In this document: positions 1 to 23,159 of the stretch, piece by piece | Layout of the letters: every line of letters starts with the position of its first letter | Position numbering within the stretch: position 1 is the first letter of the stretch | NCBI GenBank assembly: GCA_947259365.1 | Contig: CAMYMC010000046.1 | Coordinates: 1 to 64,000 of the forward strand | Source: an uncultured Acidimicrobiaceae bacterium | GTDB lineage: Bacteria; Actinomycetota; Acidimicrobiia; Spongiisociales; UBA5794 | Reading direction: 5' to 3' | Length of the DNA: 64,000 bases | Notes under the pieces: model-generated | Databases searched by the model: none | The model's input: only the letters and a program-made list of their open reading frames with translations | Told to the model about the DNA's origin: nothing | Made by a program: the position numbers and the translations under genes

Positions 1-864
1 CATGACCTCGATCTTGCGCATCGTGGCGAACGAGCGGGTGAAGTCGCGCTCGACGAGGATGTGACGGAACCCAAACCCGCAGCAGTCGAAGAACGTCGAG
101 TAGTCCCCGACCTTGGCACCGAGGGCCTGAACGAGGGCGGTCACCGTCGCCGTTCGCTCCCCGCCGTAGATGTCGGGGTCGTAGATCGCGTCCTCTTGGA
201 CGAGCTTGTAGTAGTGACACGCCGGGTGCACCGACGCGGTGATGTCGGAGAAGTCGTAGACCTGGAGGGCGGCGAACCGATCGCGCATGGCGTGGACCCA
301 TTCGGAGTAGTGGACGATCTCCTCGGGCATCACGAGCGGCTTGTCGAGCTTCGCCATGATGTCCCGCACCTGGGCCCGTAGGTCGCCGTGGTGGACGATC
401 TCCTCCCGCACCTCCTTGTAGTGGCCGTACGACGTGCCGCAGTGGATGAGCGGGAAGTAGCCCACCTCGTAGGCCGCCGCGAAGTTCCGCATCGCCACCC
501 CGGCCTGTGCCGCCGCGTTCGAGGTGGCAGACGCGTAGTAGTTCCACGCCGTGCACGACGTCTGGTCGGTCGGGTCGTCGTAGTCGAAGCCGAGCTTGCG
601 GTTGAGCCAGAAGATCGCCGTCGAGTAGCCGGGGATGTGGCCGCATTGACCGCACGACTTGTGATGCCAGGTCATCTCGACGGGGATCTTCTTCGTCCTC
701 CCGTATTTCGTCATGACTTCGACGTAGGGCTCGGGCACGCGCTGGACGATGAGCTCACCGGCGTCTTCGAGCTCGAAGAGCCGCTCCCGGATGTCCTCGG
801 TCGGCGCATCCGCCGGGTCCGGCTTCGGCTTGACCCTGAGCGACTCGATCGGAATGATGCTCAT
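1..864 (-). CDS. hdrB: HdrB-like heterodisulfide reductase subunit B (CCG-domain protein), 3' end off the left edge
   Basis: About 288 residues are visible from an ATG at 864; no stop is reached before base 1. The protein starts MSIIPIESLRVKP and has an N-terminal stretch of about 70 residues before the first cysteine motif (SCGQCGHIPGY). Later come TSCTAWNYY, HPACHYYKL and DCCGFGFRH; the last is the CCG signature that in HdrB binds a non-cubane [4Fe-4S] cluster at the disulfide-reducing site. It starts 19 bases after HdrC and is the last visible gene of a tusA-dsrE-dsrE-hdrC-hdrB unit, so a cytoplasmic sulfur-transfer or disulfide role fits (sHdr-like) better than methanogenesis. HdrA, which would complete the complex, is not in view and may lie to the left. 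The family is clear; the exact substrate is inferred. Confidence 0.85.
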   Translation of the reverse strand, partial: MSIIPIESLRVKPKPDPADAPTEDIRERLFELEDAGELIVQRVPEPYVEVMTKYGRTKKIPVEMTWHHKSCGQCGHIPGYSTAIFWLNRKLGFDYDDPTDQTSCTAWNYYASATSNAAAQAGVAMRNFAAAYEVGYFPLIHCGTSYGHYKEVREEIVHHGDLRAQVRDIMAKLDKPLVMPEEIVHYSEWVHAMRDRFAALQVYDFSDITASVHPACHYYKLVQEDAIYDPDIYGGERTATVTALVQALGAKVGDYSTFFDCCGFGFRHILVERDFTRSFATMRKIEVM

Positions 865-883
865 CCGCCGTCCCTTCGTCGGT

Positions 884-1618
884 TCATATGTCGTATCCCG
901 CCTCCTCGAGCGTCTCTTCCATGACGTCGAGGATGATCATGTGAAGGCCCTCGTCGACCTCGGCGATCATGTCCATGACCCCGGTGTAGTGCCATACGAG
1001 GTAGAGCTCGGTGAGGGTCTTGTCCGAGACCTGCCAGCTCATCGATGTGGTGTGGAGGGTCTCGGGGGGTAGCGCCCTCCGCCACAGGTCGAGCTTCGCG
1101 GACACCTCGGTGACCCCGGGTCCCCAGTCGGGAAAGGCATCGGCCTGGAGCATGTCCGGAGAGACCTGGGTGCCTGTCGTCATGATCTTGTAGACGATGC
1201 GGCTGTAGCCCTCGAGCGCCTCCTTCGACGATGCCAGCCCGTTGCTGACAGCCACCTCGCGCAGGAGGGTGATGATCCCGCCGGGTGAGTTCTGGCGGGG
1301 GCAGCGGTTGCACGAGAAGCATTGGGAGCAGTTCCAGACGTCGTCGTTCATCTGCTCGTAGATCAGCTCGACGTCCTCCCGACCCACGGCCTGGGTGATC
1401 TTGCGGGGGGAGAAGTCGTAGAACCTCGCAGACGGGCAGGCAGCTACGCAGATGCCGCACTCGTAGCACCCGTACATGTAGTCCGGGAACCGGGGGTCGG
1501 CTTTCACCTCCTCCCAGAGGCGGAGCTTCTCTTCGTACGGCACGTCGGTGTAATGCTCCGGAGACAGCGTCGCCCCCGCGTTCGCCGTGAACGTGATCGG
1601 GGGCGCGGCAACCGACAT
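884..1618 (-). CDS. hdrC: HdrC-like heterodisulfide reductase subunit C, 2x[4Fe-4S] ferredoxin-type
   Basis: This 244-residue protein has the HdrC arrangement of two cysteine clusters: CYECGICVAACP (about residues 50-61) and CSQCFSCNRCP (about 97-107). They should ligate two [4Fe-4S] clusters that pass electrons between HdrA and the HdrB catalytic subunit. The region after the second cluster is mostly helical with no membrane span, so the protein is cytoplasmic. Its ATG overlaps the stop of the upstream dsrE-like gene by one base (TGATG), indicating translational coupling, and hdrB follows after 19 bases. The context with TusA and DsrE proteins points to sulfur oxidation or sulfur-carrier chemistry. 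It could also serve a general thiol/disulfide electron-transfer complex; only experiment separates these. Confidence 0.88.
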   Translation of the reverse strand: MSVAAPPITFTANAGATLSPEHYTDVPYEEKLRLWEEVKADPRFPDYMYGCYECGICVAACPSARFYDFSPRKITQAVGREDVELIYEQMNDDVWNCSQCFSCNRCPRQNSPGGIITLLREVAVSNGLASSKEALEGYSRIVYKIMTTGTQVSPDMLQADAFPDWGPGVTEVSAKLDLWRRALPPETLHTTSMSWQVSDKTLTELYLVWHYTGVMDMIAEVDEGLHMIILDVMEETLEEAGYDI

Positions 1619-1989
1619 CAGAAGCTGATCACTGCGTCGGCGCGAGCCGCCATGTCGTTGAAGGCGGCGCCGCCGATCATCTCGACGCCCTCGATGAGGT
1701 CATCCATCTGCAGGTCGACGAGATCGAGCGACGGCTGGCACACGAGGAACCGAACCCCGATGTCCTGCGCCTGCTTGATGAAGCTCTGGAGAGGAGCGCC
1801 GCCGTCCTTCGCAGTCAGCGTGTCCCCGGTGCCCTTCCTCAGCAGCGTGGGGCCGTGCATCGTGAAGTAGATGGCGACCTCCATGTCCATCGCCGCCGCC
1901 GCCGTCGCCAGGTAGAACGGCGTCGCCGACTTGGACGGCTCGTCGTCGCCGTGGGTCTGGACGTAGAGGATGAAGGGGTCCTCATCCAT
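1618..1989 (-). CDS. dsrE: DsrE-family sulfur relay protein
   Basis: A 123-residue cytoplasmic protein with the DsrE/TusD fold pattern: an N-terminal beta strand with ILYVQTHGDDE, a helix with PFYLATAAAAMD, and a C-terminal SLDLVDLQMDD region. A single cysteine (Cys84, in RFLVCQPS) sits where DsrE-family proteins carry the sulfur-accepting residue. These proteins take persulfide sulfur from or pass it to TusA and DsrC/TusE partners. It lies between a larger DsrE-like gene and hdrC; its stop overlaps the hdrC start. The start is an ATG 21 bases after the upstream gene. The family call is firm, but its donor and acceptor are inferred from neighbours. Confidence 0.85.
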   Translation of the reverse strand: MDEDPFILYVQTHGDDEPSKSATPFYLATAAAAMDMEVAIYFTMHGPTLLRKGTGDTLTAKDGGAPLQSFIKQAQDIGVRFLVCQPSLDLVDLQMDDLIEGVEMIGGAAFNDMAARADAVISF

Positions 1990-2010
1990 GGTGCTTCCCT
2001 TCGCCGATCC

Positions 2011-2568
2011 TCAGACGAACAATGCCACATCGGCCTCGGCTGCGAAGTCGAGGAATGCGGTCGCCCCGAGACACGAGGCTCCCTCGATGATCTCGTCCTG
2101 CTTGACGTTCATGACGCCCATCGTCGTGGCGCATGCGTAGAACGTGACGTCGGACTCGAGACAGGTCTCGAACAACTCCTCGAAGTCGGGGATGTTCGAC
2201 TTCTTCATCCAGCGCTTCATGAACCACGTCGACACCCGCTGCATCCCCGGCAGCATGCCGACGATCGTCGGCACCTTGACCGGGACGCCTTCGAACGGCG
2301 GCGGCGCCGCGGCGTTGCCCACGGCCGCGACCTGGAGGTGCTTGCGGCGCTTCGCGTTGACGATGTCGAGCCCATAGAACGTGCAGAACACCCTGGCATC
2401 CCAGCCGAGGGCGCCGGCCGTCGACGCCATGATGAGGATCGGGTAGACCTCGTCGAGCCCGCCTTTCGACGCGACGAGCGCCAGCTTCTTCTGCTCGGGG
2501 ACCGCTTCGGCCCCTGGTGTCACGGCCTCGACGGCCGTGAGGACCGGGTCTCCAGATTGTGCCGTCAT
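2011..2568 (-). CDS. DsrE3-like (DrsE_2 family) sulfur-carrier protein
   Basis: This 185-residue protein belongs to the DsrE/DsrF/DrsH-like (DrsE_2, COG2210) group. Recognisable stretches are LALVASKGGLDEVYP near residue 30, the FYGLDIV segment near 64, PGMQRVSTW, and TFYACATTMGVMNV, which holds the conserved cysteine. DsrE3 proteins are persulfide carriers or sulfurtransferases in thiosulfate/sulfane oxidation clusters, usually beside TusA and Hdr-like genes, exactly the arrangement here. A second family member lies at 45004-45516. Compared with that paralogue it lacks the CLIC pair before SKG and has LVASKG instead, so only one redox cysteine is shared. It starts at an ATG shortly after tusA and is cotranscribed with it. 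Confidence 0.85.
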   Translation of the reverse strand: MTAQSGDPVLTAVEAVTPGAEAVPEQKKLALVASKGGLDEVYPILIMASTAGALGWDARVFCTFYGLDIVNAKRRKHLQVAAVGNAAAPPPFEGVPVKVPTIVGMLPGMQRVSTWFMKRWMKKSNIPDFEELFETCLESDVTFYACATTMGVMNVKQDEIIEGASCLGATAFLDFAAEADVALFV

Positions 2569-2583
2569 CAGAATCCCTTTCCG

Positions 2584-2826
2584 CTACTTGGTTCGCCGGA
2601 ACCAGAACAGGAACTTGTCGTCCTCGGTCGCCTGGGCCACCATCTCGTGACCCGTCTGCCGGACCCACGCCTCCATGTCGGGCGGGGCGCCGGGATCGGT
2701 GGCGATCATGTGCAGGACCTGCCCGACCTCGATCGTCTTGATCGCTTTCGACGTCTTGACGACCGGGATGGGGCACAGAAGGCCCGAGCAGTCGAGGACC
2801 TGATCGGCCTGGACGTCTGTCGTCAC
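2584..2826 (-). CDS. tusA: TusA-family sulfur carrier protein
   Basis: Eighty residues with the TusA signature LDCSGLLCPIPVVKT; the CPxP cysteine is Cys18, with a second cysteine at 13. TusA carries a persulfide on the CPxP cysteine and hands it to DsrE/TusBCD-type or Hdr-like partners in the cytoplasm. I chose the GTG at 2826 because a strong GAGGAGGGAGG ribosome-binding site lies about 7 bases before it; an in-frame ATG at 2850 lies upstream of that site and would give a longer, unconserved N terminus. It is the first gene of the dsrE-dsrE-hdrC-hdrB unit, and an inverted-repeat operator with a divergent ArsR-type regulator lies just upstream. The length is typical for the family. Confidence 0.9.
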   Translation of the reverse strand: MTTDVQADQVLDCSGLLCPIPVVKTSKAIKTIEVGQVLHMIATDPGAPPDMEAWVRQTGHEMVAQATEDDKFLFWFRRTK

Positions 2827-2871
2827 AGCCGGCCTCCCTCCTCGGCGCATCGGGTTGCGCCGGATTGCCGT

Positions 2872-2905
2872 CAGATATTCGTGTACGCAGATATGCGAAT
2901 ATCTG
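2872..2905. promoter_or_regulatory. ArsR-type operator between tusA operon and divergent arsR gene
   Basis: A perfect 10-base inverted repeat, CAGATATTCG (2872-2881) and CGAATATCTG (2896-2905), flanks a 14-base centre that contains a third CAGATAT-like half. AT-rich ATTC...GAAT arms are typical of ArsR/SmtB-family operators, and the region is far lower in GC than its surroundings. It sits 46 bases before the tusA start and about 127 bases before the arsR start, so it probably controls the sulfur operon, with autoregulation possible. Binding is inferred. Confidence 0.7.
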
Positions 2906-3031
2906 TTGGTCCCGGAGTATGCAACGGCGGCGCATGGTTCGTCAAACACTTCGGCCGGCGAGCTCGGCGCGGCGGTCTGCGGAGAGGCGGCGTCGCTTTC
3001 TCTGCCGGAGGACATATGGCATAGTGCATGC

Positions 3032-3349
3032 ATGGCGACGACGAGGGAGGAGCTCCTCCAGCTCCACGCCAGCGTGTGCAAAGGGCTCGCAGATGCGAAG
3101 CGTCTCCTCATCATCAACGCGCTCCGTGATGGCGAGCTCTCGGTAGGAGAGATCTGCGAGAACCTCGGTCTCCCCCAAGCGAACGTCTCCCAGCATCTCG
3201 CCGTGCTGCGCGACAAGGGCCTCGTCCGTCCTCGCCGCAACGGACAGTTCGTCTACTACTCGCTCTCGTCGCGGAAGATCATCGAGGCGATGGACCTCCT
3301 CCGCGAGGTGATGGCCGAACAGCTCGTCGTCGGCACCCCGCCCGGCTAG
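3032..3349 (+). CDS. ArsR-family transcriptional regulator, probable thiol/persulfide sensor of the sulfur operon
   Basis: A 105-residue winged-helix protein. The HTH covers about residues 37-65 (LSVGEICENLGLPQANVSQHL) and the wing is RRNGQFVYYSL. It contains just two cysteines, Cys16 (ASVCKG) and Cys42 (GEICEN). ArsR regulators of sulfur oxidation genes (SqrR/BigR/sHdrR type) sense persulfides through two cysteines, so the pair here could act likewise, although their spacing would have to be compared with those proteins. No metal-binding His/Asp cluster stands out. It is divergent from tusA-dsrE-dsrE-hdrC-hdrB. The ATG at 3032 is chosen from the usual ArsR N terminus; a GGAG lies rather far upstream at 3007-3010. 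Confidence 0.85.
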   Translation: MATTREELLQLHASVCKGLADAKRLLIINALRDGELSVGEICENLGLPQANVSQHLAVLRDKGLVRPRRNGQFVYYSLSSRKIIEAMDLLREVMAEQLVVGTPPG

Positions 3350-3394
3350 CGACACGCACCCCGGCACCGCAGCCTGCGCAGTCGCGCCGCGCCC

Positions 3395-4645
3395 TCAGCC
3401 GTCGCGGATGTGGGTGTAGGCGAGAGGGAAGAGGGCGTAGAACATGGCGGCGTCGAGCAGCTTGGCGAGGTCAACCTGATCCTGCGGCGTGTGGGCGTAC
3501 CGCTCCTCCATCGGCCCGAACCCCAGTGTGGGGATCCCGGCGACGCCCGCGGAGTACGTTCCGTTGGTGCTGAATTGCCACACCTCGACGGGAGGCGGCT
3601 CCCCCCACAGCGCGGCGCACGTGAGTCGGCCGGCGGCGACGAGGGGGTCGTCCTCGGCGAGGAGCCACCCCGGGAAGAACGCGGGGCCGGAAAGCTCCAC
3701 GCCGGTCCACGACGAGATCGTCTGGACGGGAATCGTGGCCGTCGCTCCGAGGGGCTCGACCGCGGCGGCGATGCCGGCGAGGACGCTCTCCGCCGTCTCC
3801 CCGGGGGTGAGGCGGCGGTCGATCGTCGCCTCACACCAGCTGGGAACGGTGTTGGGGGTTCGTGGCGAGGCGATCATCGTCACGACCTGGGTGCCACCGC
3901 CGAGGACCGGGTCGTCGGGCAACGAAGGCGTCATCGCCTCGAGGGCGTCGAGCACGGGACGCATCGCCAGGATCGCGTTCTCGCCGAGCTCCGGCGTGCT
4001 CGCATGCGCTGCGGTGCCGCGCACCCGGACCTTCACCTCGCATCTCCCCCGGTGCCCCCGGCGCAGCGTGAGGTCGGTGGCCTCGGCGATGAGCACGGCG
4101 TCGGGAACGGCGAAGCCGTCGACCTCGACGAGGTTCCGCATGGCGAAGCCCTCGGCGTCCTCCTCGAGCGTGGAGCCCTGGACGACGATCGTGCACTCCC
4201 CCGCCAGGCTCAGCTCCGCGGCCAGCCGGGCGCCGTAGACGATGGCGGCGACGCCGCCCTTGCAGTCGGCGGCGCCCAGCCCGTACATCCGCCCCCCGTC
4301 GACGGTCGGTTGCAGCGGCGGATGGGGCCACTCGTCCTCGTCGGCGATCTCGTTGTGGTCGAGGTGGGCGTCGTAGAGCACCCGGTGGCGGCCGTCGCCC
4401 ACCGTGGCGAGGGCGTCCCCGGCGCTGCTGGCGCGCACGTCGGAGAGCCCGCTCGCTTCCATCTCGGCGAGGGTGTGCTCGACGGCGGGACCTTCCTCGC
4501 CCGTGTAGCTGCGGCGCTCGATGAGGCCGGCGAGGAAGTCGATCTGGGCCTGCGCCACCCCCGGGGCCGCTGCTCGCACCCGCGCTGCCGCCTCGGCCAG
4601 CGGGGGCGGGACGACGAGGTCGTCCGCCCCCGGCACCGCCGTCAC
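3395..4645 (-). CDS. M20-family metallopeptidase/amidohydrolase, YgeY-like
   Basis: A 416-residue zinc hydrolase of the M20 (ArgE/DapE/CPG2) family. Visible metal and catalytic motifs are LYDAHLDHNE (His and Asp), GLGAADCKGG (bridging Asp, then KGG) and STLEEDAEG (catalytic Glu pair); the dimerisation lid starts near GRCEVKVRVRGTAAHAS. M20 enzymes remove acyl or peptide groups from amino acids in the cytoplasm. The GTG at 4645 overlaps the stop of the carbamoyltransferase gene in a GTGA and has GGAG five bases upstream, so the two are translationally coupled. That pairing mirrors ygeW-ygeX-ygeY in E. coli, except that ygeX is absent here. The substrate is not evident; carbamoylated or ureido amino-acid derivatives are one possibility. 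Confidence 0.82.
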   Translation of the reverse strand: MTAVPGADDLVVPPPLAEAAARVRAAAPGVAQAQIDFLAGLIERRSYTGEEGPAVEHTLAEMEASGLSDVRASSAGDALATVGDGRHRVLYDAHLDHNEIADEDEWPHPPLQPTVDGGRMYGLGAADCKGGVAAIVYGARLAAELSLAGECTIVVQGSTLEEDAEGFAMRNLVEVDGFAVPDAVLIAEATDLTLRRGHRGRCEVKVRVRGTAAHASTPELGENAILAMRPVLDALEAMTPSLPDDPVLGGGTQVVTMIASPRTPNTVPSWCEATIDRRLTPGETAESVLAGIAAAVEPLGATATIPVQTISSWTGVELSGPAFFPGWLLAEDDPLVAAGRLTCAALWGEPPPVEVWQFSTNGTYSAGVAGIPTLGFGPMEERYAHTPQDQVDLAKLLDAAMFYALFPLAYTHIRDG

Positions 4646-5634
4646 GTCGCTCCACTCATCGTGAGCGCCATGAGCGCCTTCTGGACGTGGAGGCGGTTCT
4701 CCGCCTGGCGATAGATCACCGACTGCGGGCCGTCGATCACGTCGTCGTCGGCTTCGTGGCCGCGGTCGACCGGCATACAGTGCATGTACGCGGCATGCGG
4801 CTTCGCCAGACTCATCCGCGCCGCGGTGGCGCGCCACGACCGGTTGTCGGCCGCCATGGCCTCCACCTCGGCCGGGTCCTCGGTGACCATGATCGGCCCC
4901 CACGATTTCGGGTACACGAAGTCGGCGTCCTCGAACGCGGCGTCCATGTCGTGGACCTCTTCGAGGGCGACCCCGGCGGCGGTGGCGTTGGCTCTCGCCG
5001 TCTCCATGACCTCCGGCATCAGGTGGTAGCCCTCCGGGTACGCCAGCGTCACGTCCACGCCGAACCGGGGCATGAGCATGACGAGCGACTGGGGGACGCT
5101 GAGCGGCCGCACGTACTTGGGGGCGTAGGTCCAGGAAACGACGAACTTGCGCCCGCGCAGGTCGCGGCCGAACAGCTCGCGCAGCGACATGAGGTCGGCC
5201 ATCGCCTGGCAGGGATGGTCGACGTCGTCCTGCATGCTGATGACCGGAGCGGCGGCGTGCTCCGCCATCTCGTACAGGTACCGCTGCCCGATGGCGGTTC
5301 GCGAATCGCGCACTGCGATGCCGTCGCCGTAGCTGCTCAGCACCATCCCGGTGTCCTTGGCGTTCTCCCCGTGGTCGATCTGCGTCGCCTTCGGCGTCAA
5401 GAAGATCGCGTGACCCCCGAGCTGGGTCATCCCCGTCTCGAACGAGTTCCGCGTCCGGGTGCTCTCCTCGAAGAACAGCATATAGAGCGTCTTCGCCTGC
5501 AGAACGTGGTCGTGGGCGACGCCGTCGCCGTGGTCCTGTTTGAGACGGATCGCGAGGTCGAGGACGGACTCGAGCTCGTCCGTCGACCAGTCCTGGGTGG
5601 AGATGAAGTCCTTCTGGAAGAGCGTCGTGTTCAC
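4642..5634 (-). CDS. Knotted-type carbamoyltransferase (YgeW / N-acylornithine carbamoyltransferase-like)
   Basis: A 330-residue aspartate/ornithine carbamoyltransferase family protein. It keeps the carbamoyl-phosphate site (EESTRTRNSF), the DHPCQAMADL motif and the C-terminal HCMPVDRG...EAENRLHVQKAL segment. The inserted RPLSVPQSLVMLMPRFG stretch followed by VTLAYPEGY resembles the knotted subgroup (YgeW, acetyl- and succinylornithine carbamoyltransferases) rather than ArgF. The second substrate is therefore probably not free ornithine. The start is the GTG at 5634, preceded by GAGG. Its stop overlaps the start of the M20 hydrolase, suggesting that a carbamoylated or acylated amino acid passes between the two enzymes. 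No other arginine gene is nearby, which argues against plain arginine biosynthesis. Confidence 0.82.
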   Translation of the reverse strand: MNTTLFQKDFISTQDWSTDELESVLDLAIRLKQDHGDGVAHDHVLQAKTLYMLFFEESTRTRNSFETGMTQLGGHAIFLTPKATQIDHGENAKDTGMVLSSYGDGIAVRDSRTAIGQRYLYEMAEHAAAPVISMQDDVDHPCQAMADLMSLRELFGRDLRGRKFVVSWTYAPKYVRPLSVPQSLVMLMPRFGVDVTLAYPEGYHLMPEVMETARANATAAGVALEEVHDMDAAFEDADFVYPKSWGPIMVTEDPAEVEAMAADNRSWRATAARMSLAKPHAAYMHCMPVDRGHEADDDVIDGPQSVIYRQAENRLHVQKALMALTMSGAT

Positions 5635-5820
5635 GGCGTCAACCTCGCATCGAGCACACTCGGGGCCGTCCCGGCGACGGCGCGGCCGCCACAACCTAGT
5701 GCCGCCGGACGGGCCCACGGCAGGCCCGATCGTCGCGCAGAGCCGCAGATCGACCGGCGGGGATTGCGCACCCTATCCTCGCGCCATGCTCCAGCCCATC
5801 GACCCCGATCGCGTCGGGCG

Positions 5821-6507
5821 ATGAGCGACCCTCGCCTGGACGTCTCCAACGGGTGCCGGGTCCTCGGCGCCGCAGACCAGGGAGACTTCATCTGGGGCCA
5901 TGTGTCGCTCCGGGACGCCGACGGCCGCGGCACCTGGATGAAGGCAGCGACATGGGGCTTCGAGGAGGTCGGACCCGATCGGGTGATCCTCATCGACGAC
6001 GACGGCGAGGTGCTCGACGGTGACGGCCGGCGCCACATCGAGTTCCCCATCCACACCGAGATCCTCGCCGCCCGCCCGGACGTCGGCAGCGTCGTCCACA
6101 CCCATGCACCGCACGCGGTGGCGCTCGCCGCCACCGGTGCTTTGCTGCGTCCGATCTCCCACGAGGGAACCCTGTTCGTGCCGCCCGACATCGCTCGGTT
6201 CACCGAGACCGGCGACCTCATCATGACCCGCGCCCTGGGCCGTTCCGTCGCCGCCTGCATCGGGGACCGGAACGCGCTGCTTCTCGTGAATCACGGCATC
6301 GTCACGGTCGGCGTCGACGTCGCCAGATCCGTGATGACGGCGCTCCTCCTCGACCGGGCATGCGCGATGCAGCTGCGGGCGATGGCCGCGGGCGAGATGA
6401 CCCACTGGTCGAGCGATGCCGAGGCCCTCTCCAAACGCGGCCGCTGCTATTCCGATGCGCTGCTCGACCAGGCATGGGAGTACCTGGTGCGCGGGCTCGG
6501 AGCGTGA
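5821..6507 (+). CDS. Class II aldolase/adducin-family protein
   Basis: A 228-residue protein of the class II aldolase/adducin fold. The substrate phosphate or carboxylate loop (GDFIWGHVSLRD) is near residue 20, and the zinc histidines are in the motif VVHTHAPHAVALA with a further histidine in LLVNHGIVTVG. The catalytic acidic residue is probably in FPIHTEILAARPD. Family members cleave or decarboxylate phosphorylated sugars or 3-hydroxy acids in the cytoplasm; relatives in aromatic clusters act on carboxylated catechols. No SD is obvious before the ATG at 5821, and a minor out-of-frame ATG at 5786 ends exactly at this start, so translation may be leaderless or coupled. It is divergent from the carbamoyltransferase and convergent with a GntR regulator. 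Confidence 0.8.
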   Translation: MSDPRLDVSNGCRVLGAADQGDFIWGHVSLRDADGRGTWMKAATWGFEEVGPDRVILIDDDGEVLDGDGRRHIEFPIHTEILAARPDVGSVVHTHAPHAVALAATGALLRPISHEGTLFVPPDIARFTETGDLIMTRALGRSVAACIGDRNALLLVNHGIVTVGVDVARSVMTALLLDRACAMQLRAMAAGEMTHWSSDAEALSKRGRCYSDALLDQAWEYLVRGLGA

Positions 6508-6525
6508 CGCGAGCGGCTGCGAGCC

Positions 6526-7272
6526 TCAGACCTGGCCCCAGGCCGCCAGGAGCTCGTTGGTGCGCTCTCGCAGCCCGGTGGCCCGGGTCAGGTGCTCGCC
6601 CAGGATCTGACGGGCCCGAGGCGCGTCCCCTTGGGTGATGGCGTCGGTGATCGCGAGATGCTCGCCGATCGTTCGCGCGTGAGCTTCATGCTCGTCCTCC
6701 TCGAGAGCGCGAACCGTCGCCATCGACAGCGGCCCCCGAAACGACAAGGCCAGCAGCTCGGCTGCGGCGTTGTGGGACGCCCGCGCCAATTCACTGTGGA
6801 ACTCACGCGACAGCTCGGCGTCGAAGCTGCCGTCGTCAAGCGCTGCGGATGCCTCAGCACACAGCTCGCGCAGGGCGGTGATGTCGCCTTCGGTCGCTCG
6901 ACCCGCCGCGAGCGTCACCGTGCTCAGCTCGATCATGAGCCGCGCCTCTGCGATGTCGTCGGGACTGATCGCGGAGAGCATGAGCATGTCCGCCAGGCCC
7001 TGGCGGACGACATCAGGGCTTGGCGACGTCACGAACGTTCCACCGCTCGCACCGACCCGGATCTCCGCCAGGCCCATCGCCTCGAGAACGCGAAGCGCAT
7101 CCCGCACGGTGACCCGGCTCACCTCGAACTGCTCGGCGAGCTCTCGCTCTGACGGAAGTCGCTCTCCGACCTTCAAGGTGCCGTCGGCGATGGCAACACG
7201 GATCTGGGCCACGATGACGCTGGAGATCCTGCCCGACCGGATCGGTGAGAACATTGTGTGGTCCGCCGCCAT
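6526..7272 (-). CDS. GntR/FadR-family regulator with FCD ligand domain (paralogue 1)
   Basis: A 248-residue regulator with an N-terminal winged HTH (GERLPSERELAEQFEVSRVTVRDALRV split over residues about 38-65) and a C-terminal helical FCD domain; LSREFHSELARASHN and later histidines (EHLAITDAI, GEHLTRA) form its usual metal/acid pocket. Regulators of this type release DNA on binding organic acids. Its recognition helix (VSRVTVRDALR) is identical to that of the second GntR gene at 8513-9226, so both probably read the same operator. A copy of that operator (7281-7290) lies immediately before the ATG, suggesting autorepression. It follows the gntR2-MFS pair on the same strand and is convergent with the class II aldolase. 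Confidence 0.92.
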   Translation of the reverse strand: MAADHTMFSPIRSGRISSVIVAQIRVAIADGTLKVGERLPSERELAEQFEVSRVTVRDALRVLEAMGLAEIRVGASGGTFVTSPSPDVVRQGLADMLMLSAISPDDIAEARLMIELSTVTLAAGRATEGDITALRELCAEASAALDDGSFDAELSREFHSELARASHNAAAELLALSFRGPLSMATVRALEEDEHEAHARTIGEHLAITDAITQGDAPRARQILGEHLTRATGLRERTNELLAAWGQV

Positions 7273-7280
7273 GGTGCAAC

Positions 7281-7290
7281 GTTAGACCAT
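7281..7290 (-). promoter_or_regulatory. GntR/FadR-type operator copy 1 (before gntR paralogue 1)
   Basis: On the minus strand this reads ATGGTCTAAC, one of five copies of the ATGGT-N2-RAY core found in this part of the window. It is only 8 bases before the start codon of the GntR gene, so binding would block its transcription or translation initiation. It matches the FadR-subfamily consensus TNGTNNNACNA at all but the last position. Confidence 0.6.
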
Positions 7291-7292
7291 TG

Positions 7293-8516
7293 CTACCGGA
7301 CCCCCGGGGCTTGGAGATCCGGCGCCGGTCGTCGCAGCATCGCCGATGCCACGAGGTAGAGAGCGGGGAACACGAAGGCGGCGATGACGAAGGTCGCCGG
7401 AATCCCGACGATCTCCGCACCGAGCCCGCCCAGTGCCGGCCCGACGAGCTTCCCCACGTCGAGCCCTGCGAGATAGACACTCGACGCGGCTCCACGCCCC
7501 GCATCGGAGGCGGTGGACTCGTCGAGGACGAGCGCAGCGGTCGCAACGCGCAGAAGCCCGCGGGCGAGCCCGATGCCGCCCCACGCAACGGCGACCACGA
7601 GGAAGGTCGACGTCGAGCCGAGCAAGGCGATGGCGGTGCCGCTCACGACGACCGCCGGGGTGAGCACCTTCCGGTACGAGAGCCTGGCGAACACGGGAGC
7701 GGACACGAACCGCACGAGGGCCGCAACCAGCCCGTGGATGCCGAACGCGAAGCCGATCTGGCTCAACGTCAGACCCACGTCGAGCCCGTGGAGCGGGAAG
7801 AACGTCAGCACGACCCCGCTGACGAGGTTGATATAGAGGGTGACGACGAAACCGAGCCATACCCAGCGCGGAACGCGGCGGAAGGACGCGAGCCGGCCCG
7901 CTCCGGTTGCGGGTTCCGGAGCGGCCGCAACGACGACGGCCGTGCGGCGGAGAGCGACGAAGAGCACCATTGCGGCCACCGCGGCGACACCCGCCACCAG
8001 GACGAACGCCTCACCCACGCCGAAGACGTCGGCGACCGGACCCCCGACGAAGCCGGCACAGGCATAGCCGAGCCCCAGACTCCCCGTGTAGAGACCCATG
8101 AGCGTGCCAGCGGCAACCCCGGGCGGCTGTCTCTCCATCACCGCCGCCATGAGGGCCGTCGTCCCGAACGCGAAGGCGGCACCGTTGACGCCGACGAGCA
8201 GCGCGACGAATACCGGAGCCCCCGTCGTCGGGATGAGGACGAACGCCATCGCCGACGCGAGAGCAGCCCCCGCCACCAACACCGGACCCCGCTGCGATGC
8301 GTATGCGGCTCCCGCCCACAGCCTCGTGACGAGCGACGCGGCGCCGTAGACCGCAACGAGGCCCCCGATGAGACCCACGTGGATCGCTCGCGACTCGAGA
8401 TACGGAGAGATGAGGAACGCAAAGGTCCCCTCACCGAGGGTGAGGACGGCGGCTGCGGTGAACACCGGCCACAGCGAGCCGAGGCCCGCCCGCTCGCCCT
8501 CGGGCGAGCCCGTCAC
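7293..8516 (-). CDS. Major facilitator superfamily permease
   Basis: A 407-residue integral membrane protein with about twelve hydrophobic segments, for example FTAAAVLTLGEGTFAFLI at the start and ATFVIAAFVFPALYLVASAM near the end. The central cytoplasmic loop is short and carries PEPATGAGRLASFRRVP. The GTG at 8516 overlaps the stop of gntR2 in a GTGA. Coexpression with a FadR-type regulator inside an aromatic block suggests uptake or export of an organic acid, but the sequence does not reveal the substrate. A clear paralogue lies at 16467-17744: both share LDVGK(L/I)VGP and ARGLLRV stretches in the C-terminal half. Confidence 0.88.
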   Translation of the reverse strand: MTGSPEGERAGLGSLWPVFTAAAVLTLGEGTFAFLISPYLESRAIHVGLIGGLVAVYGAASLVTRLWAGAAYASQRGPVLVAGAALASAMAFVLIPTTGAPVFVALLVGVNGAAFAFGTTALMAAVMERQPPGVAAGTLMGLYTGSLGLGYACAGFVGGPVADVFGVGEAFVLVAGVAAVAAMVLFVALRRTAVVVAAAPEPATGAGRLASFRRVPRWVWLGFVVTLYINLVSGVVLTFFPLHGLDVGLTLSQIGFAFGIHGLVAALVRFVSAPVFARLSYRKVLTPAVVVSGTAIALLGSTSTFLVVAVAWGGIGLARGLLRVATAALVLDESTASDAGRGAASSVYLAGLDVGKLVGPALGGLGAEIVGIPATFVIAAFVFPALYLVASAMLRRPAPDLQAPGVR

Positions 8517-9226
8517 CTCTGGTCGACGGCCCTCGCCGTCCGAGTCAGGTGGGCACGGAGGATGTCCGCCGCGTTCTCCGCCTCGCCGGAGCGCACGGCG
8601 GCGACGATTCGGCGATGCTCTTCCCACCCCTGGACGCCCATCCCCGGATCCGCTGAGTACGCAGTCTCGAGCGAGGCCAGGAGCGGATCGCGGACGGTCT
8701 CCGCGAGCAGGGCGAGGGCGTCGTTGTGGGTGCACGCGGTGAGGGCAGAGTGGAAGGCAGCGGAGAGCTCGAGCGTCGGTTGGCCCGCGGCGAGCGCAGC
8801 GTCGGCCTCGTCGCACAGGGCATCGAGCACCTCGAGGTCGCGCTTGGTCGCCCGGGCGACTACCAGCGGTAGCGAGCCGACCTCGATGAGCAGCCGGGTC
8901 TCGGTCACGTCGCCGGGGTCGAGATCCGAGAGCATCATCATGTCGGTGAGCCGCTCTCCGAATTGACCGGCATCCGGGGCGCGAACGTAGGCCCCGCCGC
9001 GAGCTCCGACTCGGATCTCGATGAGGCCGTTCGCCTCCAGGATGCGCAGTGCGTCCCGCACGGTCACCCTGCTGACGCCGAATTGCTCCGTGAGCTCTCG
9101 CTCCGAGGGCAGGCGGTCGCCCGGAGTCAACGCGCCCGAGTGGAGCGCGGCGCGGATCTGGGTGACGATCTCTTCCGAGATCCGGCCGGTCGAGACCGGA
9201 GCGAAAGAGAGCCTCGATTCGGCCAT
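8513..9226 (-). CDS. GntR/FadR-family regulator with FCD ligand domain (paralogue 2)
   Basis: A 237-residue regulator whose HTH (LPSERELTEQF, then VSRVTVRDALRILEANGL) is almost the same as that of paralogue 1, followed by an FCD domain containing LSAAFHSALTACTHN. It is divergent from the bicupin-pca operon; the 81-base gap between the two starts holds a full operator copy at 9254-9266. The ATG at 9226 is preceded by a GGGGGG ribosome-binding stretch. Its stop overlaps the start of the MFS gene. It is the prime candidate for control of the pca operon and, through the other operator copies, of the transporter and UbiD blocks. The inducer is unknown; an aromatic acid or ring-cleavage product is likely. 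Confidence 0.92.
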   Translation of the reverse strand: MAESRLSFAPVSTGRISEEIVTQIRAALHSGALTPGDRLPSERELTEQFGVSRVTVRDALRILEANGLIEIRVGARGGAYVRAPDAGQFGERLTDMMMLSDLDPGDVTETRLLIEVGSLPLVVARATKRDLEVLDALCDEADAALAAGQPTLELSAAFHSALTACTHNDALALLAETVRDPLLASLETAYSADPGMGVQGWEEHRRIVAAVRSGEAENAADILRAHLTRTARAVDQR

Positions 9227-9253
9227 GCAGACCCCCCGACACCCAACGGTATG

Positions 9254-9266
9254 ATGGTTAGACAAT
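9254..9266 (+). promoter_or_regulatory. GntR/FadR-type operator copy 2 (gntR2 / bicupin-pca divergent promoter)
   Basis: The sequence ATGGTTAGACAAT contains TGGTTAGACAA, a perfect fit to TNGTNNNACNA. It is 28-40 bases from the gntR2 start and 42-54 bases before the bicupin start, suiting control of both directions. Flanking bases (GGTATGATGG ... ACAATATGG) are shared with copy 5 at 25372, so the conserved block is about 22 bases. Confidence 0.72.
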
Positions 9267-9307
9267 ATGGTACCGTCCCGCCGCCGGCAACCGAGGAGAG
9301 CACCACG

Positions 9308-10303
9308 ATGGCGAAAGGCCGAGTCTTCCTGAGAGGGATCGAATCCCAGAAATACGCGCTCGGATCCGTCCGGCGGGGGCAGCTGGACGCCCCCCGGGTG
9401 CGCGACGACAGCGTCGTCGTCGACGACGCCAGCGTCGGCCACTCCGGGGACTCGAAGGACACGCGAACGTGGTGGAGGATCGGACCCGGCGACGACCCAT
9501 TCCTCACCCAGACCCTGCAGGTCCACTTCGTCGAGTTGCCCCCGCACACCGCCAACACCGGCCACGGCCACCAGAACGAGGCCGCGTTCTACATCCTCGA
9601 GGGAAGCGGGTACGAGATCCACGACGGCAAGCGGTACGAGTGGGAAGAGGGCGACCTCGTGATCGTTCACACCGACTCGGTCCACCGCCACTTCAACGAC
9701 TCCGACGAGAAGGCCAAAGCGCTGGTCTTCAAGGCGAAGTCGATGTGGATGTTCCTGGGCCTCCTCCAGCAGGGCAGGCGGGGGCCCGTCGCCGACGAGG
9801 ACCGCTACGGGCCGAGAGTCGACTGGTCCCAGGTGTGGACGCCGGGTGTCGAGGACCGCATCAAGGTGGTCAAGCCGTCGGACACCAAGTGGGAGACCAC
9901 CGCGGACGGCATGGTGAGGGTGATCGTCGGGCCGCAACGCGACGACGTTCGCCTCTTCTCGGTCGATGCGTACGAGCAGGAGATCCCCGCCGGGAGCCGC
10001 TCGGCGAAGCACTGGCACATGGCCGACGAGGTTCTCTACATCCTCGAAGGCGACGGCTACAGCCTCCACTGGGAGGTCGAGGCCGAGATCGACGACCGCT
10101 ACTACGCCCGGATCGCCAACGAACCCACGCGCCACGAGTTCACGACGGGCGACACCGTGTACGTGCCGCACAACACGATCCACCAGCACTTCAGCACGGG
10201 CGAAGGCGCGGTGAAGCTCCTGTCGCTGCAGAACCGCGTCTTCCGGCACCTCGGATACGACAACGTGGCCCACCTCGAGCCTGCTCCGGAATACCAGAGC
10301 TGA
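9308..10303 (+). CDS. Bicupin protein, probable metal-dependent dioxygenase-like enzyme
   Basis: A 331-residue protein with two cupin barrels. Barrel 1 carries the metal motif GHGHQNEAAFYILEGSG (about residues 80-100); barrel 2 carries KHWHMADEVLYILEGDGY (about 235-252), and each has the trailing histidine of the second cupin motif (HTDSVHRHF, HNTIHQHF). Two intact HxH...E...H sites suggest metal binding in both halves, as in gentisate dioxygenase and related bicupins, though the overall sequence does not allow a firm substrate. It is the first gene of the pca operon, with a GAGGAG ribosome-binding site, and is driven by the promoter holding operator copy 2. It may supply or remove an aromatic intermediate upstream of protocatechuate. 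Function beyond the fold is not established. Confidence 0.78.
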   Translation: MAKGRVFLRGIESQKYALGSVRRGQLDAPRVRDDSVVVDDASVGHSGDSKDTRTWWRIGPGDDPFLTQTLQVHFVELPPHTANTGHGHQNEAAFYILEGSGYEIHDGKRYEWEEGDLVIVHTDSVHRHFNDSDEKAKALVFKAKSMWMFLGLLQQGRRGPVADEDRYGPRVDWSQVWTPGVEDRIKVVKPSDTKWETTADGMVRVIVGPQRDDVRLFSVDAYEQEIPAGSRSAKHWHMADEVLYILEGDGYSLHWEVEAEIDDRYYARIANEPTRHEFTTGDTVYVPHNTIHQHFSTGEGAVKLLSLQNRVFRHLGYDNVAHLEPAPEYQS

Positions 10304-10326
10304 CACGCAGCGCAAAGGAGGGCACG

Positions 10327-10695
10327 ATGGCGGACGATCGCTTCGAGACGGGCATGGCGGTGCGCCGTGAGGTGCTGGGGAACGCCCACGTCGACAAGGC
10401 GTTGGGCGACGGCGACGGCATCGACGCCGACTTCCAGCGCTTCATCACCGAGGCCGCCTGGGGCTCGGTGTGGAGCCGGCCCGGACTCGACCGGCGGACG
10501 AGGAGCCTGGTCACGATTGCGATCCTGGCCGCCCTCGGACGCGACGAGCTCGACATCCACCTGCGGGCGTCGCGCAACACCGGCGCGGACACGTCAGAGA
10601 TCGTCGAGACGCTCCTCCATGTCGCCGTCTACGCTGGCGTACCTGCGGCTCACACCGCCATGGTGCGAGCGAAGAGGATCCTCGGCGATGCATGA
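10327..10695 (+). CDS. pcaC: 4-carboxymuconolactone decarboxylase
   Basis: A 122-residue member of the carboxymuconolactone decarboxylase (AhpD-fold) family of the usual PcaC length. The sequence keeps GLDRRTRSLVTIAILAALGR and ELDIHLRASRNTGAD with the conserved helical ETLLHVAVYAGVPAA segment. PcaC converts 4-carboxymuconolactone to 3-oxoadipate enol-lactone in the beta-ketoadipate pathway. It lacks the CxxC of peroxidase AhpD proteins, which supports the decarboxylase reading. A strong AAAGGAGG site lies before the ATG. The stop lies inside the pcaH coding region with an 8-base overlap. Neighbouring pcaB and pcaD supply the reactions before and after it. Confidence 0.92.
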   Translation: MADDRFETGMAVRREVLGNAHVDKALGDGDGIDADFQRFITEAAWGSVWSRPGLDRRTRSLVTIAILAALGRDELDIHLRASRNTGADTSEIVETLLHVAVYAGVPAAHTAMVRAKRILGDA

Positions 10696-11395
10696 GAGCT
10701 ACCTGCCCCGCGACGACGACCATCCCCCGTTTCTCTATGCCGACTACCGCTCGACCGTGAAGCGGTCCCCGGAGATGTCGCCGGTTGCCATCGTGCAGAC
10801 GTTGAGCGAGGTCACGGGCCCCGGACCTGCGGTCTCCGAGCTCACGACCGAAGATGCCGACCTGACCACCAACGCCGGCACCGGCGGCGAGGCGATCGGG
10901 GAGCGGATCATCGTCACCGGCCGCGTCATCGACGAGAACGAGGAACCGGTGCCCGACACGATCATCGAGGTGTGGCAGGCCAATTCGGCGGGACGGTACA
11001 TCCACCAGCGCGACGACCACCCCGCCCCGCTCGACCCCAACTTCATCGGCGTCGGCATCACCAAGACCGGGCCGGACGGCGAGTACCGCTTCACCTCGAT
11101 CCGCCCCGGCGCCTACCCGTGGAAGAACCACCCGAACGCGTGGCGACCGCCGCACATCCACTTCTCCCTCATGGGCCCCGCGCTCGCCACCCGTCTCATC
11201 ACCCAGATGTACTTCCCCGGCGATCCGCTCCACGCCCTCGACCCCATCTTCAACTCGGTGCCGGCTCCGGCACGTGAGCGGCTCGTCGCCGAGTACGACC
11301 ACGACGTCACGATCGAGAACTGGGCGCTCGGCTACCGATGGGACATCGTCTTGCGCGGGAAATCGGCCACCCCCTTCGAGGAGGTCGCTCCGTGA
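10688..11395 (+). CDS. pcaH: Protocatechuate 3,4-dioxygenase beta subunit
   Basis: A 235-residue intradiol dioxygenase subunit. The Fe(III) ligands of PcaH are all present: Tyr104 (GRYIHQ), Tyr143 (GAYPWKNHP), and His156 and His158 (RPPHIHF). The N terminus contains DHPPFLYADYRSTVKRSP, the typical PcaH beta-subunit start. The enzyme opens the protocatechuate ring between the two hydroxyls to give 3-carboxy-cis,cis-muconate. It acts as a hetero-oligomer with PcaG, whose GTG overlaps the pcaH stop by four bases, favouring balanced synthesis. This gene shows that the organism completes aromatic breakdown aerobically by ortho cleavage. Confidence 0.96.
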   Translation: MHESYLPRDDDHPPFLYADYRSTVKRSPEMSPVAIVQTLSEVTGPGPAVSELTTEDADLTTNAGTGGEAIGERIIVTGRVIDENEEPVPDTIIEVWQANSAGRYIHQRDDHPAPLDPNFIGVGITKTGPDGEYRFTSIRPGAYPWKNHPNAWRPPHIHFSLMGPALATRLITQMYFPGDPLHALDPIFNSVPAPARERLVAEYDHDVTIENWALGYRWDIVLRGKSATPFEEVAP

Positions 11396-11967
11396 CCGCG
11401 CGCGGCCAGACCCCGTCCCAGACCGTCGGGCCCTTCTTCCACGACGGCCTCGTCCGTGAAGGGGAAAACGTGCTCTCCCGTCCCGACGCCGAGGGGCGCA
11501 TTCGCATCGAGGGCGTCGTCCTCGACGGGGACCGCAACCCGATCGAGGATGCGCTCATCGAGATCTGGCAAGCCAACGGTCACGGCCGCTACCGGCATCC
11601 TTCCGACGTGCGGGACGTGCCCCTCGTCGACGGATTCACCGGCTTTGGGCGCACGCCCACAGATCCTGCCACGGGCGGCTATTGGTTCGAGACCGTCAAG
11701 CCGGGGCCCGTCCCCGATGCCGAAGGCGAGATGCAAGCGCCCCACATCAGCGTGATCGTCTCCGCCCGGGGCATGCTCAAGCACTCGTTCACGAGGATCT
11801 ACTTCGCCGACGACGACGCCATCGCGAGCGACCCCGTCCTGGCGACGGTGCCCGAGGCCCGGCGCTCGACGCTGCTCGCGACCCCCGCCGCGGGCGGCTC
11901 GGTCCGCACGTATCGATTCGACATCCGGTTCGGCGGCAGCGACGAGACGGTCTTCTTCGACGTCTGA
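11392..11967 (+). CDS. pcaG: Protocatechuate 3,4-dioxygenase alpha subunit
   Basis: A 191-residue intradiol dioxygenase-fold protein that starts at the GTG overlapping the pcaH stop (GTGA). It has the alpha-subunit features TPSQTVGPFFHDGL at the N terminus, IEIWQANGHGRYRHP in the middle and APHISVIVSARGMLKH near the C terminus. In line with PcaG it lacks the complete iron ligand set of PcaH: APHIS has one histidine where PcaH has HIH. It forms the active site interface with PcaH. Its stop overlaps the next gene by one base (TGATG). Confidence 0.95.
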   Translation: MTARGQTPSQTVGPFFHDGLVREGENVLSRPDAEGRIRIEGVVLDGDRNPIEDALIEIWQANGHGRYRHPSDVRDVPLVDGFTGFGRTPTDPATGGYWFETVKPGPVPDAEGEMQAPHISVIVSARGMLKHSFTRIYFADDDAIASDPVLATVPEARRSTLLATPAAGGSVRTYRFDIRFGGSDETVFFDV

Positions 11968-12782
11968 TGGAGCTCCTCTCGCTGCGGGACGCAGTTGCCC
12001 GTCACGTCCACGACGGCGACACCGTGGCGATGGAGGGCTTCACCCATCTCATCCCCTTCGCCGCGGGCCACGAGCTCATACGCCAGCACCGGCGGGACCT
12101 GACCCTGATCCGAATGACCCCCGACATCATCTACGACCAGCTCATCGGGGCGGGATGTGCCCGCAAGCTCGTCTTCTCGTGGGGGGGAAACCCCGGTGTC
12201 GGCTCGCTCCACCGGCTCCGCGACGCCGTCGAGCACGGCTGGCCGGGGTCGATCGAGATCGAGGAGCACAGCCACGCCGCGATGGCGAGCGCGTACGCGG
12301 CAGGGGCGGCCGGCCTGCCCATCGCGCTGCTCAAGGGCTATCACGGCACGGACCTCGTCGAGCACAACCCGAACATCCGCTTCGTCGAGGATCCGTTCAC
12401 GGGGCAGCGTCTCGCTGCGGTGCCCGCACTCCGTCCGGACGTCGCCGTCATCCACGCCCAGCGAGCCGACGAGGATGGCAACGTGCTCATCGAGGGGATC
12501 GTCGGCGTCCAGAAGGAGTCCGTCCTGAGTGCGTCCCGGGCGGTGGTGACGGTCGAGGAGGTCGTCGCCGACCTCGCCGCCCCCAGCCCCAACTCGGTCG
12601 TGCTCCCCGGCTGGACGATCGACGCCGTCGCCGTCGTCCCGGGCGGGTCCCACCCCTCCTATACCCACGGCTACAGCGATCGTGACAACGCCTTCTACAA
12701 GGCATGGGATGCCATCTCGAGAGACCGGGACACCTTTCAGCAGTGGATCCGGGACAACGTCTTGGACGGGGAGAGTCCGTGA
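11967..12782 (+). CDS. pcaI: 3-oxoadipate CoA-transferase subunit A (GctA/CatI-type)
   Basis: A 271-residue family I CoA-transferase alpha subunit. It begins MELLSLRDAVARHVHDGDTVAMEGF and includes HLIPFAAGHELIRQ, GNPGVGSLHRLRDA and the HAQRADEDGNVLIEG stretch typical of GctA/CatI proteins, which are longer than the PcaI of Pseudomonas. With subunit B it transfers CoA from succinyl-CoA to 3-oxoadipate. Stop-start overlaps on both sides (TGATG, GTGA) place it firmly in the pca operon. Sequence alone cannot separate 3-oxoadipate from glutaconate or other dicarboxylate specificity; the pathway context decides. No thiolase (pcaF) is in the operon, so the last step must be provided elsewhere. Confidence 0.88.
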   Translation: MELLSLRDAVARHVHDGDTVAMEGFTHLIPFAAGHELIRQHRRDLTLIRMTPDIIYDQLIGAGCARKLVFSWGGNPGVGSLHRLRDAVEHGWPGSIEIEEHSHAAMASAYAAGAAGLPIALLKGYHGTDLVEHNPNIRFVEDPFTGQRLAAVPALRPDVAVIHAQRADEDGNVLIEGIVGVQKESVLSASRAVVTVEEVVADLAAPSPNSVVLPGWTIDAVAVVPGGSHPSYTHGYSDRDNAFYKAWDAISRDRDTFQQWIRDNVLDGESP

Positions 12783-20624: not shown

Positions 20625-20660
20625 GGTCCTGCCTCCTCGACGACGGCACCGGGGTGCCGC

Positions 20661-21239
20661 TCAGGGCGCTGGGGCCTCCTCGTAGTCGACGTCGGCGGGA
20701 GCCGCATCAACGGCATAGTCCGTGCCCTCACCGACCTTGGTCTGGCTCGGATGACGCTCGATCATGTGCAGCCGCAGGTGGCGTAGCAAGCCGGTGTCCT
20801 GGACGGCGAGGTAGCGGGCCACCTCGTCGTCGCTGGTGTTGAAGTGCTGGTGCCACGCCCACACCGGCGGCGAGAACAGGCTGCCCTCCGACCAGTCGAC
20901 GCGCTGCTCGGGCTCGCCCTCGTAGTTGACGATCGAGTACCCGGTGCCGCGCACGATGTAGATATAGGCCTCGGTCGTGTGTCGGTGACGGGTCGTGTGA
21001 CCGCCGGGTGCGATCTCGCTGACGTGTGCCTGGATGATGTTGTTGTCGGCAAGGTGAAAGAAGCGGCCGTGGTTGTTGCGCCACGGCCTGTAGGGAAGCT
21101 CCATGGTGCGCAGATCGCCCGGGACGGCGAGCCCGGTCACCGGCGGGTACTGACGGTTGAACTCGTCCCGAGCCGCCATCTCGGACGCCGAGACGTTTCG
21201 CGCGTCGTTTGCGAGAACCTGATAATCCCACTCACCCAT
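20661..21239 (-). CDS. Single-domain cupin protein
   Basis: A 192-residue protein with one cupin barrel. The metal motif is GGHTTRHRHTTEAYIYIVRGTG (HRH with downstream acidic side, about residues 79-100), and the second motif holds PPVWAWHQHFNTS. The N-terminal 60 residues include RDEFNRQYPPVTGLAVPGD and are not recognised. It has its own copy of the GntR-type operator (21292-21303) about 55 bases before the ATG, so it is a member of the regulon and starts the cupin-permease-ATPase-MFS transcript. An AGGAG site lies about 10 bases before the start. Enzyme activity is uncertain; small cupins in such clusters act as decarboxylases, isomerases or ligand-binding proteins. Confidence 0.78.
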   Translation of the reverse strand: MGEWDYQVLANDARNVSASEMAARDEFNRQYPPVTGLAVPGDLRTMELPYRPWRNNHGRFFHLADNNIIQAHVSEIAPGGHTTRHRHTTEAYIYIVRGTGYSIVNYEGEPEQRVDWSEGSLFSPPVWAWHQHFNTSDDEVARYLAVQDTGLLRHLRLHMIERHPSQTKVGEGTDYAVDAAPADVDYEEAPAP

Positions 21240-21291
21240 GAAATGTGCTCCTGTCTCAGAATCCAGGAGAACGTAGCACAGCCCCAGGTGA

Positions 21292-21303: not shown

Positions 21304-21326
21304 TTGACGAATGGCCGACGACGCCC

Positions 21327-23066: not shown

Positions 23067-23098
23067 GCTCGTCACCTCCTCGACGGCATCATCGCGAT

Positions 23099-23134: not shown

Positions 23135-23159
23135 GCTTCGCGTCATCTGATGTGGGCCG

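Follow-up and report, generated by a model that had tools for sequence, protein, structure and literature searches.

The window, by which we mean the whole stretch of 64,000 nucleotides that was analyzed, starts at a contig end, and its first 3,349 positions hold a leftward operon of sulfur-carrier and Hdr-like genes beside a divergent regulator gene. The features of this part are:

1..864, minus strand: hdrB, read as sHdrB1; the 288 N-terminal of 394 aa, open at the window edge; NCBIfam HdrB 79.8 bits (below cut-off)
884..1618, minus strand: hdrC, read as sHdrC1 from synteny, a 4Fe-4S dicluster protein; NCBIfam HdrC 84.9 bits (below cut-off)
1618..1989, minus strand: dsrE, DsrE-family sulfurtransferase; PF02635, 69 bits
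2011..2568, minus strand: DsrE2/E3-type sulfurtransferase; PF13686, 127 bits
2584..2826, minus strand: tusA, sulfur carrier; PF01206, CPxP motif; GTG start at 2826, an upstream ATG being possible
2872..2905, no strand: putative operator, an inverted repeat
2916..2945, minus strand: sigma-70-like promoter of the tusA operon; TTGACG, 18 nt, CATACT
3032..3349, plus strand: arsR, divergent, predicted ArsR/SmtB repressor; PF01022

The earlier note had called a tusA-dsrE3-dsrE-hdrC-hdrB set here, and Pfam matches together with synteny recover all five genes as an sHdr-type operon. The E3 label is not settled, because the DsrE2/3-type protein reaches only 152.7 bits against the NCBIfam SulfCarrDsrE2 model, whose cut-off is 210. 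All NCBIfam Hdr models also score below cut-off, which we count against our main reading. Relatives keep both the order and the sequence of the tusA-dsrE-hdr genes, indicating that the arrangement is not a product of chance. An Rfam search of the window gave no match. Upstream of tusA, a search for sigma-70-like promoters found one where shuffled sequences led us to expect 0.1; ten bases separate its end from the inverted repeat, which lies just downstream of the −10 box. The repeat is the sole site in the genome with at most one mismatch, and six genomes can be aligned over it at the corresponding position, bearing out the dedicated operator that had been proposed. One further site, with two mismatches, lies on contig C26; a control pattern also gave two matches.

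The operon continues on another contig of the same genome (C22, locus L003), which overlaps the window by 99 exact bases and carries the remainder of sHdrB1 at L003 1-420. A homologue at locus L028, 92% identical, runs unbroken across the join between the window's contig (C46) and C22; that the operon is read over two contigs nonetheless counts against our main reading. C22 encodes HdrA, a conserved protein termed hyp, a fused HdrC-HdrB (HdrB3), EtfBA, a 702-aa membrane Fe-S protein, three LbpA, two lipoate ligases, LipS1, and LipS2. The hdrA and lbpA/lipoate genes that had been predicted to lie leftward are thus present, as is the second hdrC/hdrB pair, in its fused form. The three LbpA proteins are GcvH-like and have a lipoyl-type lysine in motifs read by eye (E-S-S-K, E-S-A-K, and E-A-E-K), a residue that we take to be the equivalent of the lipoyl lysine of GcvH. 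The sLpl/LipS1/LipS2 lipoate-assembly genes score under the curated cut-offs: LipS1 falls just short (227.2 bits against 230), and LipS2, its gene broken by the contig end, is partial at 22 bits. The hyp subunit is modeled by AlphaFold with a mean pLDDT of 85, yet no PDB fold matched it at E ≤ 0.001.

Under the published rule, a type II system unites shdrC1B1AHB3 and etfAB in one cluster, while type I is defined by the absence of EtfAB. Here shdrC1, B1, A, H (hyp), and the fused B3 are syntenic across the 99-base contig overlap, and etfAB (L003 3579-5317) lies in the same cluster. By sequence, then, the operon encodes the full type II (EtfAB-linked) sHdr system, in a form already described, in a member of the Acidimicrobiia. 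The earlier note had presented the gene set as known from other phyla and occurring here in an actinobacterium; an sHdr system is indeed present, but in its type II form with EtfAB, and the Actinobacteria are established hosts of this arrangement (PMC6067878), so its occurrence here is not new. The 'Group III' type II sHdr-LbpA systems of Actinobacteria and Firmicutes (PMC6067878, PMC11582611) share C1, B1, A, hyp, fused B3, and EtfAB with this operon, as well as two to three LbpA and TusA/DsrE carriers in one cluster. Nothing here breaks that definition; an unassigned protein and a zinc-finger-like protein lie between the gene for the membrane protein and lbpA. In its accessible part, the description of Sulfobacillus hdr gene cluster II (PMC4378227) likewise places EtfAB beside a long 'hdrC' with six TM helices and two CCG domains, and does not name that protein as EtfD/EMO. 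A comparable Hdr-Etf-TusA-DsrE-LbpA cluster, trd_0160-0142, occurs in Thermomicrobium roseum (PMC6776052); unlike the operon here, tusA has no ArsR gene nearer than 1.5 kb in the Thermomicrobium relatives compared.

The 702-aa membrane protein, which we call sEMO, belongs by sequence to the EtfD/EMO family, an assignment new here. Its match to M. smegmatis EtfD (9ojn) has an E-value of 1.6e-84, marking the two as homologues, and it retains the heme His pair along with three Arg, two Phe, and the full eight Cys of clusters D3 and D4. We compared its relatives among the best 80 matches of the genome scan, so the counts cover close relatives. Among the matches listed, the heme b His pair and the eight Cys of cubane clusters D3 and D4 are each found in 52/52 sEMO and the quinone-site Phe pair in 50/52. 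The ligands of the linear [3Fe-4S] cluster D1, present in 28/28 EtfD, are all gone in the 54/54 readable type II sEMO among the matches listed. The base for these numbers was 58 open frames, six of which fell short of 560 aa and were not counted among the 52; on re-examination L122 and L111 agreed on the loss of D1 and bring the total to 54, and the other four end before D1. Mycobacterial EtfD (9ojn, PMC13083937) thus has in common with sEMO the heme b His, the quinone-site Phe pair, the two cubane clusters, and most ligands of noncubane D2, while sEMO lacks every D1 ligand and has Asp at the equivalent of C712. FadF and DgcB, which are EtfD homologues, are also said to be D1-less, and electron entry at D2 has been proposed (EMBO J 2026, PMC13083937); the likeness to sEMO is by description, and they differ in use, serving fatty acid and dimethylglycine oxidation. 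In a tree that took 26 of the 63 HdrB3 rows, chosen at random, sEMO and EtfD formed separate groups (SH-aLRT 99 and 100). Eleven named repeats of class loci were dropped to leave 89 loci, of which 44 were excluded for a missing etfA or flank; among the matches listed, sEMO comes immediately after etfA in 44 of the 45 testable loci, and it is present in the 45th (L067) as well. A D1-less relative at L172, in another acidimicrobiian, shares its cluster with EtfAB, HdrA, and what looks like a [NiFe] hydrogenase, indicating that this type of protein is not confined to sulfur metabolism, a point that we count against our main reading. In the open-licence literature we found no paper that assigns this membrane protein to EtfD/EMO and no biochemistry for sEMO or type II sHdr, which for sEMO we likewise count against that reading.

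These features suggest how the operon may work. TusA and the two DsrE-type proteins would deliver protein-bound sulfane sulfur to sHdrC1B1A-hyp-HdrB3, which with LbpA, lipoylated by the operon-borne ligase, LipS1, and LipS2, would oxidize it to sulfite in the cytoplasm, by analogy with Hyphomicrobium. The b-FAD motif region of EtfB reads DELDGQVAM, against DGDTAQVGP in bifurcating proteins, and its DxDT core occurs in 0/65 among the matches listed; from these residues we read EtfAB as non-bifurcating. Electrons would most likely leave through EtfAB to the adjoining sEMO, acting as an Etf:menaquinone oxidoreductase, and pass along D2-D3-D4-heme b-menaquinone, with entry at D2 because D1 is absent. 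The divergent ArsR would repress the operon from its single operator, perhaps sensing its signal via Cys16. Electron route and repression included, we think it probable that the window holds the 5′ part of a ~16-kb type II sHdr-LbpA operon in an uncultured acidimicrobiian.

The electrons might instead go mainly to NAD+, at sHdrA or a lipoamide-type step, leaving EtfAB-sEMO as a side branch or for LbpA re-oxidation only. PMC11323534 states that the Hdr complex of Sulfolobaceae reduces NAD(P)+, and type I systems by definition lack EtfAB; we nevertheless regard this route as unlikely, since etfBA-sEMO lies within the type II operon, sEMO comes after etfA in 45/45 testable loci among the matches listed, and sHdrA, a short protein of 353 aa, aligns only to the central part of the long HdrA2 model. 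An anaerobic bifurcating HdrABC of the methanogen or FlxABCD kind has HdrA/B/C homology in its favor and seems to us extremely improbable: LbpA and TusA/DsrE are present, the EtfB motif is non-bifurcating, and the ORFs read on L003 include no Mvh gene nor any of the methyl-CoM and Flx (FlxABCD) genes that the earlier note had tied to a non-sulfur role. We reject it on gene content and the EtfB motif. No match to SoxZ, the sulfite-oxidase dimer domain, AprA, DoxD, or RuBisCO was found in the 94% complete genome (the SoxZ control matched in no genome), so we can name no sulfur source and no sulfite sink and count this against our main reading. The same result, for SoxZ, AprA, sulfite oxidase, and RuBisCO, suits an operon that oxidizes thiols or organic sulfur in starvation with little or no sulfite formed, serving persistence rather than lithotrophy. 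According to PMC6776052, the homologous 19-gene cluster of T. roseum is up 45-fold in persistence, and its authors proposed that thiols are oxidized and that the electrons may travel by way of ETF. Because the carrier set and LbpA fit the sulfite-forming Hyphomicrobium pathway, and almost every host of an hdr-like locus in PMC6067878 lives by oxidation of sulfur compounds or mineral sulfides or is capable of it, we hold this to be a minority possibility.

The earlier description of the regulator as a divergent, two-cysteine ArsR protein stands; its likening to sHdrR-controlled systems does not. Of its cysteines, C16 lies in helix 1 and C42 in helix 3, whereas the sensing positions of sHdrR/SqrR/HlyU, in helices 2 and 5, are occupied by N29 and A95, opposite HlyU C30/C96 (chosen by their 66-residue spacing, the same as that of sHdrR Cys50/Cys116). 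sHdrR (PMC12423496) is likewise an ArsR-family protein near shdr genes, but its two cysteines have no equivalents here. That divergent position, the two cysteines, and the one conserved operator would suit a genuine sensor of sulfane sulfur that works like sHdrR, by bridging two cysteines, a reading that we nonetheless consider quite improbable: the helix-2 position is Cys in 0/38 ArsR rows, C42 is absent in 12 of the 24 rows having C16 (counted by eye), and PMC12423496 itself gives a caution that many shdr-linked ArsR are without the pair. We therefore reject identity with sHdrR at the sensing site.

For the acceptor of the Hdr-like sulfur pathway, the open-licence literature, in its accessible parts, gives NAD(P)+ or leaves the matter open ('possibly via ETF'). 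The 2026 EtfD cryo-EM structure allows sEMO to be checked residue by residue as an Etf-to-menaquinone carrier, and the needed residues are present, save those of one outer cluster, which is missing from other EtfD homologues too. Among the matches listed, the evidence is evenly poised on a joint reading in which type II sHdr systems of at least eight phyla (going by the MAG labels) would share a monophyletic, dedicated, D1-less Etf:menaquinone oxidoreductase that couples sulfane oxidation to the quinone pool, not NAD+, with the same module also paired with an Hdr-hydrogenase cluster and the ArsR of one lineage sensing by a single helix-1 cysteine. The acceptor can now be assayed directly in cultured hosts, Ferrithrix and Thermomicrobium among them, and its identity bears on how much energy widespread uncultured actinobacteria and Chloroflexota gain from oxidizing sulfur.

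The positions that the earlier note gave for the five genes on the minus strand, and for arsR diverging from them, are confirmed. HdrC and HdrB reach 84.9 and 79.8 bits with NCBIfam models, both below cut-off; despite these scores, synteny fixes the assignments, as the order tusA, dsrE, hdrC, hdrB, hdrA, hyp, hdrCB is repeated in 20 fetched neighbourhoods, to each contig's limit. The HdrB1 protein occurs in 23 of 395 same-class genomes searched, including the source genome. Window position 1 is base 1 of contig C46, and an hdrB search also matched, at 100%, the opening 99 bases of contig C22 (locus L003, 13,073 bases) of the same genome, the C46/C22 overlap being exact. A relative (L028) supports this join, since its uninterrupted 394-aa HdrB (92% identity) is directly followed by hdrA. 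The hdrA, lbpA and lipoate genes predicted to the left are indeed present on C22, and the second hdrC/hdrB sought there exists as the fusion hdrCB (HdrB3).

Operon continuation on contig C22 (L003 coordinates)
413-1474, hdrA
1471-2253, hyp, conserved, helical sHdr-cluster protein
2250-3542, hdrCB/HdrB3
3579-4352, etfB
4349-5317, etfA
5325-7433, sEMO
ends 7947, small conserved protein, first of two between sEMO and lbpA
7944-8222, small conserved zinc-finger-like protein (two CxxC...HxxxxH-like motifs, weak zf-Di19 match)
about 8230-8661, lbpA
8658-9107, lbpA
9109-10125, lipoate ligase
10139-10594, lbpA
about 10591-11610, LipS1
about 11604-12746, ligase
12743 to contig end, LipS2

Pfam, NCBIfam and PDB fold searches with hyp gave no match, and a search of the genome for the rest of LipS2 found no further piece. 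The sEMO-lbpA interval (7426-8222) holds both small conserved proteins. Elsewhere, window positions 18897-27618 encode ABC transporter parts, a cupin, a thiamine-diphosphate enzyme and a UbiD-family decarboxylase.

The cluster contains shdrC1B1AHB3 and etfAB, the type II definition of the 2024 SoxT paper; Cao et al. 2018 (PMC6067878) describe a 'Group III' (Actinobacteria, Firmicutes) in which Hdr-like genes are linked with EtfBA, as are two or three LbpA. Named genomes among the best 80 HdrB1 matches listed include Acidimicrobiia MAGs, Ferrithrix thermotolerans, Thermomicrobium, Alicyclobacillus and Sulfobacillus, alongside MAGs of Chloroflexota, Gemmatimonadota, Neomarinimicrobiota, SAR324 and Euryarchaeota. 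Given this composition and these known bearers, the operon is a further example of the described type II sHdr systems, and the kind itself is not new. Type II sHdr genes also occur in MAGs that carry the labels Euryarchaeota, Neomarinimicrobiota and SAR324 (L124, L126, L128 and L078); sEMO is among them at L124, L128 and L078.

The 702-aa membrane protein sEMO, whose gene adjoins etfA, matches M. smegmatis EtfD (9ojn; E 1.6e-84). By the cofactor residues reported in the EMBO J 2026 paper (PMC13083937), sEMO keeps heme ligands H89/H264, three Arg (one of which, R169, is R in only 8 of 52 relatives), Phe96/Phe253, all eight D3/D4 cysteines, and the His and four of five Cys of D2. At the four ligand places of D1, the linear [3Fe-4S] cluster, it has D465, N500, D537 and S540. 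None of 52 aligned type II proteins has a D1 Cys at these positions, L122 and L111 share this state, and Asp replaces the fifth D2 Cys in all 46 that reach it. Sixty class genomes gave 29 homologue loci; three of these (L143-L145; 47-58% identity to sEMO) are D1-less, whereas the other 26 (36-40%) keep all D1 ligands, which, with the source genome's own EtfD (C21) and 9ojn, are intact in 28 of 28 EtfD. HdrB3 is mixed at D1, its third D1 position being Asp or Gly and never Cys. In a quick tree, for which the tool gave a long-branch warning, sEMO, EtfD and HdrB3 each fall on one side of a branch (SH-aLRT 99, 100 and 100). FadF and DgcB, too, are without D1 according to the EMBO J authors (PMC13083937), who infer that Etf can pass electrons to D2; hence the electron wire need not fail through D1 loss.

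A D1-less sEMO relative also occurs at L172 (3903-14047), in a genome of the same order (G054) absent from the listed HdrB1-bearing genomes, where its companions are EtfAB, a long HdrA, a soluble protein resembling HdrCB and, judged from ORFs by reading, putative MvhD-like and cytoplasmic [NiFe] hydrogenase-like proteins. This cluster could perhaps carry electrons from H2 to menaquinone via Hdr and Etf.

The ArsR model is confident (mean pLDDT 90), with five helices, the first bearing C16 and the third C42. Its proposed identity as an sHdrR-type two-cysteine regulator is not supported at the sensing site, for N29 and A95 align opposite the HlyU cysteine pair, spaced 66 residues. Counted by eye over 38 ArsR rows from the vicinity of type II genes, a helix-1 Cys stands in 24 (one of the other 14 is truncated at helix 1), a helix-3 Cys in 12 and the canonical helix-2 Cys in none. 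The helix-1 Cys is absent from the source genome's alignable ArsR paralogues (L138 and L142 are unalignable, L141 gave only a junk alignment). Of 73 testable loci, 26 have an ArsR gene no more than 1.5 kb from tusA, divergent in 12 and on the same strand in 14, which marks it as a lineage feature. The suggested dedicated operator is upheld, being alignable in six genomes and having no second site with at most one mismatch elsewhere in the genome. At two mismatches the window holds two overlapping sites (0.01 expected), with a pattern derived from an alignment including the same site. The operator begins 10 bases beyond the -10 box of the sole promoter-like site, a position usual for a repressor site.

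At the place where bifurcating EtfB has its b-FAD motif (eLife 2022), EtfB here reads DELDGQVAM; the D-x-D-T core occurs in none of 65 type II EtfB rows, and the closest EtfB of solved structure is 1o94_C, catalogued as an Etf beta-subunit. What the sequence shows directly is the gene content and the residues; the direction of flow, the substrate and the control are inferred. Searches of the 94% complete genome for SoxZ, AprA, sulfite oxidase, DoxD and RuBisCO gave no match, the SoxZ control matching in no genome. This pattern suggests that the host is a heterotroph using sulfur as an additional electron source.
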